Source: Gammaproteobacteria bacterium
GTDB lineage: Bacteria > Gemmatimonadota > Gemmatimonadetes > Longimicrobiales > Gaopeijiaceae
DNA length: 64,000 bases
NCBI GenBank assembly: GCA_028819075.1
Contig: JAPPMM010000059.1
Span: forward strand, 62,001 to 126,000
Reading direction: 5' to 3'
Below, piece after piece: positions 56,753 through 61,236 of this stretch (positions are counted from its first letter, which is position 1; every line of letters starts with the position of its first letter). Both the position numbers and the translations under genes were made by a program. The notes under the pieces were generated by a model that had not been told where the DNA came from, did no database searches, and saw nothing but the letters and a program-made list of their open reading frames with translations.

Positions 56753-58552
56753 TTACTGTTCAATAGATAGCACGGCTAGAAACGCCTCCTGCGGGATCTC
56801 GACCGACCCCACCAGCTTCATCCGCTTCTTCCCCTCCTTCTGCCGTTCGAGCAGCTTGCGCTTGCGCGTGATGTCGCCGCCGTAGCACTTGGCGGTCACC
56901 GCCTTGCGCAGGGCCTTCACGTTGGTGCGCGCCACGATCTTGGACCCGATCGCCGCCTGCAGCGCCACCTGGAACTGCTGGCGCGGGATGAGCTCCTTCA
57001 GCTTGCGCACCAGGTCGCGGCCGTAGAGCTGCGCGCGGTCGTGGTGGATGATGACGCTGAAGGCATCCACCGGATCGCCGTTCACCAGCACATCCAGCTT
57101 CACCAGGTTGTCGGGCCGGTACTCCGCGAACTCGTAGTCGAGCGCCGCGTAGCCGCGCGTGCTGCCCTTGAGGCGGTCGTAGAAGTCCAGGACGATCTCG
57201 GCCAGCGGCAGCTCGAAGTCCATCTCCACGCGCCGGGGATCCAGGTAGCGCATCCCCTTGAACGTCCCGCGCCGATCGTGGCAGAGCTTCTGCACGTTGC
57301 CGATGTATTCGGCGGGCGACACGATGTGCGCGCGCACCCAGGGCTCGGCGACCGACTTCAGCTTGCCGCGTCCAGGCAGGCGAGTGGGGTTCTCGATCGC
57401 CAGCTCGCTGCCGTCGGTGAGCGTGATGTGATACTCGACGTTGGGCACGGTGGTGATCAGGCTGACGCCGAACTCGCGGTCCAGCCGCTCCTGGACGATC
57501 TCCATGTGCAGCAGCCCGAGGAAGCCGCAGCGGAAGCCGAATCCGAGGGCGGCCGAGGTCTCCGGCACGTAGTGCAGGCTGCCGTCGTTGAGCCTGAGCC
57601 GGTCGAGCGCGTCGCGCAGCGACTCGTAGTCGTCGGCGTTGCTGGGATAGAGCCCCGCGAACACCATGGGGCGGACTTCCTTGTAGCCCGGCAGCAGTTC
57701 GGTCGCCCTGCGGGAGGCCTCTACGACGGTGTCCCCCACCCTCGTGTGCGTGACCGATTTGATGGCCGCGACCAGGTAGCCCACTTCCCCGGGGTGGAGG
57801 GCATCGCGGGGCACGCGCACCAGCCGCGTGTAGCCCACCTCGGTTACCTCGTAGGTGGCGTTCACGGTGCCGAAACCGATGTCCATCCCGGGGCGCAGCA
57901 CACCGTCCACCACGCGCACGCTCGGGACCGCGCCCAGGTACTGGTCGTAGTAGGAGTCGAAGATGAGCGCGCGCAGGGGCGCCTCCGGGTCTCCCTCCGG
58001 AGGGGGCACCCGTTCGATGACCGCTTCCAGGATCTCCGCGGCGCCCGTCCCCTCCTTGGCGCTGGCGAGCAGCACCTCGGAGGGATCGACCCCCAGCAGG
58101 TCCGCGAGCTCGTCGCGGCGGCGCTCCGGCTCGGCGCCTGGAAGATCGATCTTGTTGATCACCGGGATCACCTCCAGGTCCGCGTCCAGCGCCAGGAACA
58201 GGTTCGAGATGGTCTGGGCCTGGACGCCCTGGCTGGCGTCGACGACCAGGATGGCGCCCTCGCATGCGGCCAGGGAGCGTGACACCTCGTAGGTGAAATC
58301 GACGTGTCCGGGGGTGTCGATCAGGTTGAGCTGATAGCGCTCGCCGTCGCGCGCCGTGTAGTCCATGCGCACGGCGTGCAGCTTGATGGTGATGCCCCGC
58401 TCGCGCTCCAGCTCGTTGGAATCGAGCACCTGGGCGCGCATCTGCCGGGGATCGAGCGCGCCTGTGAGCTCCAGGAGCCGATCGGCCAGGGTCGACTTGC
58501 CGTGGTCGATGTGGGCGACGATGCAGAAGTTGCGGATGCGGTCGAGCTGCAC
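56753..58552 (-). CDS. lepA: elongation factor 4 (LepA)
   Basis: Ribosome-binding GTPase of 599 residues: G1 AHIDHGKST (13-21), [33 protein letters not shown], domain IV/V features and the C-terminal [25 protein letters not shown] specific to LepA. GTG start with the family N-terminus [10 protein letters not shown]. Expected to assist ribosome movement or assembly at the membrane. Confidence 0.97.
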
Positions 58553-59651: not shown

Positions 59652-60680
59652 TCACCGCTGCCGGTCGGAGGGACCGAATCCGCCACCGGGCGATCCACCG
59701 GAAGGCGCCAGCGGCACACCCGCGATCTGCCGTCGCAGCGCGCGGATCTCCGCGGGACCGACGCGGCAGCACCCGCCGACTCCTGCCGCACCGCGGGCGA
59801 TCCAGTCGCCCGCATCCGGGATCGGCTCGCCGGCCCCGCCGGCGCCGTTCGCGGGCCAGTGCCACGTGCCGGTGCGGGCGTCGTACACCTCCCCCGAGTT
59901 GGGATAGGCGATTGCGGGAAGATCGGTCACGGTGCGGATTCGCCCGATGAGCTCGCCGACATGGGCGGGGGCGACGCAGTTGACTCCCACCGCCACCACC
60001 CGGTCCGCCCGATCGCAGAGGCGTGCGACCTCCTCCACCGGCGTGCCGTCCCAGAGCCGCGCGCCATCCGCGCAGCAGAAGCTCATCCACACGCAGGCCT
60101 CCGGCGTCTCGTCCAGAATCCCGAGCAATGCCTCGACCTCGAGACCCGAGGGGATGGTCTCGCACAGGATCAGGTCGGCGCCCGAGCGCGCGAATAGCCG
60201 GAATCGGCGCCGGTGGAACGCGTCCAGCACCCCGAACTCGACGCCGTAGCGGCCATCGTACTCGGACCCGTCCGCGAGATACGCCCCGTATGGGCCGGCG
60301 CTCGCCGCCACCAGCGGCCGCAGCCGCCCGGTGCGGTTGGCCTCAACCGCCCAGTAGCGATCGCGCGCTTCGAGAGCCAGCGCGACCGACAGCTCAAGGA
60401 AGCCGGCCGCCTCGGCATCGTCGTAGCCCTGCTCGCGGAAGCCGGCAAAGCTCGCCTGGTAGCTGGCGGTGGAGACGCAATCCGCACCTGCTGCGAGGTA
60501 TTCGGCGTGAATGTCGCGGATGGCATCGGGGTTCGAGACGAGCAGTTCCGCCGACCAGAGCCGGGTGCCGAGCCGGTGTCCGCGGGCCTCGAGCGCCGTC
60601 GCCAGACCCCCGTCGGCGATCAAGGGCCTCCCGCGAGCGAGAAACGGCGCAAGAGGCCCGTTCTTCTCCGCCGGGCTCAT
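59652..60680 (-). CDS. mmuM: homocysteine S-methyltransferase
   Basis: A 342-residue betaine/S-methylmethionine-type methyltransferase barrel making methionine from homocysteine. [13 protein letters not shown] is the family start; zinc ligands are expected in VGVNCVAP and the C-terminal [10 protein letters not shown] pair. ATG overlaps the stop of the selenoprotein gene (ATGA). Methyl donor is not determined by sequence. Confidence 0.92.
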
Positions 60681-61039
60681 CCCTCCGGACTGAGCAGCGT
60701 CGACAGCATCTCCGCGTTGTATCCCACCATGAGCCGATCCCCGCTGCGCATGGTGGGCGCGCGCAGCTTTCCGAAGCGGCTGCAGAGCAGGCCCACGAGG
60801 TCCTCGTCGGCGGGCCGCGTGGCGTTCAGATCGACGTGCACGATCTTCTTCCCCCTGGCTACGTAGAGGTTGCTCACGCCCTCCAGCAGGCCCAGGACCT
60901 GGTCGCTCGCCACGGGGTTGCGCGTGGCGCTCTGCGTTTCCTCCGTCGCGATCTCGTTCTGCGCAAGAAACTCTTGCGTGCGCTTGCAACTGGTTCAGCC
61001 CGGGCGGTGATACCGCCATTCAACGGACGACGTGGCCAT
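60677..61039 (-). CDS. ArsC/thioredoxin-like selenoprotein (UGA = selenocysteine at residue 15)
   Basis: Read through one in-frame UGA, this frame gives 120 residues: MATSSVEWRYHRPG, then U15, then TSCKRTQEFLAQNEI, ending in a thioredoxin-fold half with a cis-Pro-like LRAPT and DRLMVGYNAEML. The UGA (60995-60997) falls on the first position of the C-x-x-C redox motif, so the site is U-x-x-C as in other bacterial selenoproteins. A SECIS-like hairpin follows 16 nt on. ATG at 61039 has GGAGG 5 nt upstream, and the 3' end is ATGA-coupled to mmuM, so it is not a decayed gene. The family resembles proteins annotated as ArsC family (seleno)protein; its substrate is unknown. A 78-residue ORF downstream of the UGA is only its tail. 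Confidence 0.8.
60962..60978 (-). promoter_or_regulatory. SECIS-like hairpin for UGA decoding
   Basis: mRNA-sense stem CGCAAGA / UCUUGCG, 7 perfect pairs, with loop GUU. The stem begins 16 nt after the UGA and the loop is 23 nt after it. A short apical loop with G at its start, a stem of several pairs and a 16-37 nt UGA-to-loop distance are the published features of bacterial SECIS elements read by SelB. Confidence 0.7.
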
Positions 61040-61236
61040 GGGTCCCTCCGATGAGTGTGCGGCGCGAATGGAAAACGGCGGGAGAGCAGCGCCGGTATGC
61101 CCGGACCTAATGTCGAACAACCGGCCTTGCGGCGCTATCGCGGCGGTTTGATTCTTGGGACGCATCCGGGGCGCGGGCCGACGCCGGACGGACACGCGCC
61201 GATGCCGCCCTGCGACCCGAACCCGTGGAGACCAGG

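Follow-up and report, generated by a model that had tools for sequence, protein, structure and literature searches.

A predicted ArsC/Spx-like selenoprotein gene interrupted by UGA in a Gemmatimonadota-group genome

ArsC-like selenoproteins were already listed in 2006 (PMC1794560). The Global Ocean Sampling study of 2008 described “Arsenate reductase 2” (cd03032), an ArsC/Spx-like protein with a UxxC motif from marine metagenomes (PMC2398784; listed in PMC9312934), and an ArsC-like selenoprotein with a UxxS motif came from the Sargasso Sea study (PMC9312934). A curated NCBIfam model, NF041106 “ArsC family (seleno)protein” (ArsC_rel_Se_1), is available for such proteins, although a literature text search found no paper describing it.

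The gene described here lies within a window of 64,000 nucleotides, the whole stretch of DNA analysed. It is a new member of a known family. The original prediction of a selenoprotein is correct, but genes of this kind were known before: NF041106 is catalogued, and an ArsC-like UxxC protein was reported in 2008. The features of the locus are as follows:

60677..61039, minus strand: ArsC/Spx-like selenoprotein gene, 120 residues with Sec15, stop UGA at 60679-60677 (from the frame and profile matches)
60995..60997, minus strand: in-frame UGA, the predicted Sec codon 15 (U of U-T-S-C; TGA in 61/61 distinct sequences, Cys codons in Planctomycetota homologues)
61045..61049, minus strand: GGAGG, likely ribosome-binding site, 5 nt 5′ of the ATG (read from the sequence)
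60962..60978, minus strand: SECIS-type hairpin lying 16 nt 3′ of the UGA, with a 7-bp stem and a GUU loop (from covariation)
59652..60680, minus strand: mmuM-like (homocysteine S-methyltransferase) gene, named as in the original prediction; a neighbour outside the proposed mechanism

The interrupted frame and its conservation

The minus-strand frame from the ATG at 61039 translates as MATSSVEWRYHRPG-U-TSCKRTQEFL...LLSPEG, with UGA written as U. The only internal stop between 61039 and 60677 is the UGA at 60997-60995 (codon 15, RPG-U-TSC), so that the translation bears out the claim of a single UGA in an otherwise continuous frame. The predicted GGAGG is likewise present before the ATG, at 61049-61045. 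The two sides of the UGA had been described as one thioredoxin-fold protein, and this agrees with two profile matches: NF041106 spans both halves (residues 6-111, 114.5 bits), and Pfam ArsC (PF03960) covers residues 10-112 with 25.4 bits against a gathering score of 24. A crude scan of the window for further UGA read-throughs listed nothing; as it missed the known one too, its empty list does not speak against others.

An internal stop signifies by default a nonsense mutation. The gene could thus be a pseudogene or the product of a sequencing error, with only fragments left, and if it is cut at the UGA an open tail of 78 residues does persist on the 3′ side. Protein searches, with one genome taken per species, recovered 34 relatives, and all 34 have TGA at codon 15, which is attributable neither to chance nor to sequencing error. 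None of these 34 shows a clean stop followed by unrelated sequence, the pattern that had been named as telling against the prediction. Further genomes were then added to give 61 distinct sequences, one of them identical to that of the window. Codon-by-codon reading places TGA, never TAA or TAG, at codon 15 in 61/61 of these, from Gemmatimonadota, Acidobacteriota, Rokubacteria and Planctomycetota, with both flanks conserved. The probability of a pseudogene or an error is therefore close to nil, this reading being ruled out by the conservation of the UGA and of the protein.

Across an alignment of 37 sequences, identity to the window protein ranges from 97% down to 35%. The invariant positions, with Sec written as C, are Y10, R12, G14, U15, C18, L25, G63, G90, R93, A94, P95, G100, V105 and G106. 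Cys18 is found in 60/61 distinct sequences. The exception is a close relative (L019, 1385-1729), a MAG that has Tyr at this position and thus UxxY (U-T-G-Y) in place of UxxC; this could be a MAG error or a variant that uses the selenol alone.

Since the pattern used to collect the 61 sequences requires UGA, cysteine forms were sought separately. Family searches were translated through stops, the stops were counted, and matches over the NF041106 cut-off were tallied. Exactly one internal TGA occurs in 67/67 such matches from the window's phylum and in 25/25 from the phylum to which L020, titled Acidobacteria, belongs. The corresponding search around L033, titled Planctomycetota, gave 81 matches in its phylum, 70 with one TGA and 11 with none. 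Ten of the 11 stop-free matches were read, and in each of these the site is occupied by Cys (TGC or TGT); the reading pattern missed some loci, e.g., L139, L142 and L145. The UGA was predicted to occupy the place of the first Cys of a C-x-x-C motif, and the homologues do carry Sec or Cys at residue 15. One genome with SelA (G800) holds two copies of the family (L139 and L141), one stop-free and one with UGA.

Shorter, divergent members that keep the UGA (e.g., YQRPG-U-TSCKRTR) were observed at L098, L099, L101 and L102, which belong to the window's class (genus g73), and at L119, L123 and L124. All seven fall below the NCBIfam cut-off, and the RNA 3′ of their UGA differs. Part of the family therefore escapes the curated model. 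In genomes of the L020 phylum (L114 and L115) there is a second ArsC-type selenoprotein candidate, FYKST-U-TTCRNARSFL; its frame is otherwise open and it scores about 27 bits to NF041106.

The downstream hairpin and the selenocysteine machinery

A SECIS-type hairpin had been predicted after the UGA. It is found 16 nt downstream as CGCAAGA-GUU-UCUUGCG (60978-60962), and its pairing is kept by covariation. In 37 distinct sequences, 94.2% of the stem cells are paired against a mean of 87.2% in shuffled alignments, and 16 cells are changed on both sides of the stem against 3.0 in the shuffles. The stem covariation score is 0.273 against 0.145. None of 500 shuffles reaches the observed pairing, number of double-changed cells or covariation score, and every slid register of the stem lowers both the pairing and the score. 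Double changes fall on 3 stem pairs, a number reached in 135 of 500 shuffles and so not in itself unusual. Stem variants among the relatives include CGCAAGA/UCUUGCG, CUCGAGA/UCUCGAG and CCCAGGA/UCCUGGG, and some of the paired changes also alter the protein (T-Q-E-F-L-A to T-R-E-F-L-E). Two rare codons are retained within the stem, in a window of 70% GC: TTT in 28/37 sequences (9.8% of the window's Phe codons) and CTT in 30/37 (7.2% of its Leu codons). In the loop, G27-U28 is invariant in the alignment, with a G in the apical loop as for bacterial SECIS elements. Judged from the aligned sequences, the comparative evidence that this predicted hairpin is paired is strong.

The folding energy is unexceptional (z 0.73 to -0.31) and non-significant by itself, and the case for the hairpin thus rests on covariation. 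An Rfam scan of the region returned sub-threshold matches only. The divergent L033 and L098-L102 keep the UGA in the absence of the same stem; like some Planctomycetota, they have other downstream hairpins or none recognised. As these divergent members were left out of the hairpin alignment, the covariation is valid for the main clade only.

The original prediction placed the selenocysteine machinery outside the window, elsewhere in the genome. A search of that genome located all four components on contigs other than that of the window: selA (516 bits), selB (310 bits), selD (302 bits) and a tRNA-Sec (74.8 bits), which ARAGORN reports as tRNA-SeC with anticodon TCA. In agreement with the claim that the window is without sel genes, the best sel matches are all on other contigs. 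The only match to the SelB profile inside the window coincides with the ORF of a 599-aa LepA-like GTPase (56753-58552).

The same association is seen across genomes. In the sample of the window's phylum, SelA is found in 65/66 genomes whose Sec form exceeds the NF041106 cut-off versus 225/329 others (Fisher p 8e-9, uncorrected for relatedness). The sole Sec-form genome of this sample that gave no SelA match, G339, is 89% complete, and the gene is possibly missing through incompleteness. SelB exceeds the cut-off in 15/15 genomes tested among relatives from several phyla. For Planctomycetota, SelA is present in 20/20 Sec-form versus 2/10 Cys-only genomes (p 8e-6, uncorrected for relatedness), where every Cys-only genome found was included and the Sec genomes were hand-picked from a list.

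These results bear on whether the UGA might be decoded as an amino acid other than Sec, through a reassigned code or leaky suppression. Such decoding would fit with Sec at residue 15 being predicted from the sequence rather than read from the protein. However, the terminator of the same gene is itself UGA, the genome encodes the full Sec machinery, the UGA occupies a redox Cys position, and its replacement is Cys, mostly in genomes that lack SelA. Decoding as another amino acid is thus extremely unlikely, and the interpretation of the UGA-interrupted gene at 61039-60677 as a selenoprotein gene is supported.

Fold, proposed chemistry and neighbouring gene

The proposal is that SelB/SECIS-directed insertion of Sec very probably yields a 120-residue UxxC selenol-thiol oxidoreductase of ArsC/Spx-like type. 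The hairpin at 60978-60962 would recruit SelB carrying Sec-tRNA(Sec), the latter produced by means of SelA and SelD, whose genes lie on other contigs, and the UGA at 60997-60995 would hence be read as selenocysteine in the living cell. The product would be a thioredoxin-fold, ArsC/Spx-like protein of 120 residues in which Sec15 would act as the nucleophile and Cys18 as the resolving thiol. It could cycle between the selenol/thiol and selenenylsulfide states, reducing some substrate, with electrons supplied by a thioredoxin- or glutaredoxin-type donor. By analogy with the established chemistry of UxxC/CxxC thioredoxin-fold proteins, action as a selenol-thiol oxidoreductase is the most likely role.

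AlphaFold predicts a thioredoxin-like structure (pLDDT 89, pTM 0.81). Among the matches listed, the nearest solved structure is Spx both by sequence (6ghb, 3.2e-11) and by fold (3gfk, Z 8.9, 4.9 Å over 95 residues). The core fits the thioredoxin-like BC3987 more tightly (Z 8.0, 2.1 Å over 71 residues). These Spx matches are what speaks for a selenium-dependent Spx-like regulator, which would bind RNA polymerase, its U-C pair serving as the redox switch, and would be a special case of the proposed redox chemistry. Against this, the Spx models score 22.7-37.1 bits versus cut-offs of 75-159 and so remain short of them (NF002459, 37.1 versus 123 bits; TIGR01617, 35.0 versus 75.05 bits). The full-length superposition with B. 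subtilis Spx is loose (4.5-5.0 Å) compared with that on BC3987, and a β-hairpin is predicted by the model in the segment between the core strands. It is therefore unlikely that the protein is such a regulator. A reading in which oxidants are sensed through the U-C pair, with an effect on RNA polymerase or on some other partner protein, is equally unlikely; if it held, stress regulation in Gemmatimonadota, Acidobacteriota and Planctomycetota would be under the control of selenium.

The protein might instead be a true arsenate reductase of the ArsC type with Sec as its nucleophile. The Pfam ArsC match, barely over its gathering score (25.4 versus 24), would agree with this, as would R93, which together with R12 makes up the invariant arginines of the alignment and stands within the invariant R-A-P. 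Yet the Spx and redoxin models are closer than the arsenate reductase models, none of which is among the listed NCBIfam matches, and an arsenate reductase is likewise an unlikely reading.

Downstream of the proposed oxidoreductase, the stop codon of its gene overlaps the ATG of the mmuM-like gene (60680) as ATGA. Plant relatives of the mmuM-type enzyme methylate selenocysteine. The original prediction took the overlap as coupling to mmuM. The overlap itself is confirmed, but it gives no ground for inferring a common function: a tblastn search with MmuM in flanks of 1.5-3 kb found the ATGA overlap kept in L001-L010 only, a narrow lineage of the same genus and near relatives. A functional operon is consequently unsupported on the basis of the one neighbour tested in these flanks. 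The tblastn search also found a separate MmuM copy near L027.

Significance and comparison with known families

Ordinary gene callers cut such genes at the UGA or miss them, and selenium use in uncultured bacteria is thus underestimated. As the exchange of Sec for Cys occurs mostly in SelA-less genomes, the family is a useful test case for the gain and loss of selenocysteine.

The closest relationship is with the NF041106 family. The window protein matches its model over the full length with 114.5 bits against a curated cut-off of 85, and Sec or Cys occupies the same site. There is no difference that matters, and the window gene adds a member from an uncultured genome of the Gemmatimonadota group. 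“Arsenate reductase 2” (cd03032, PMC2398784) is also ArsC/Spx-like with UxxC and is probably the same family as the window gene, as matched by description only. The Sargasso Sea protein is alike in having Sec in an ArsC-family protein but differs in its UxxS motif, whereas UxxC is found in 60/61 distinct sequences here. The Spx transcription regulator provides the nearest solved structure, with CxxC where the window protein has UxxC; the window protein nonetheless lies far under the Spx family cut-offs and superposes on Spx loosely.
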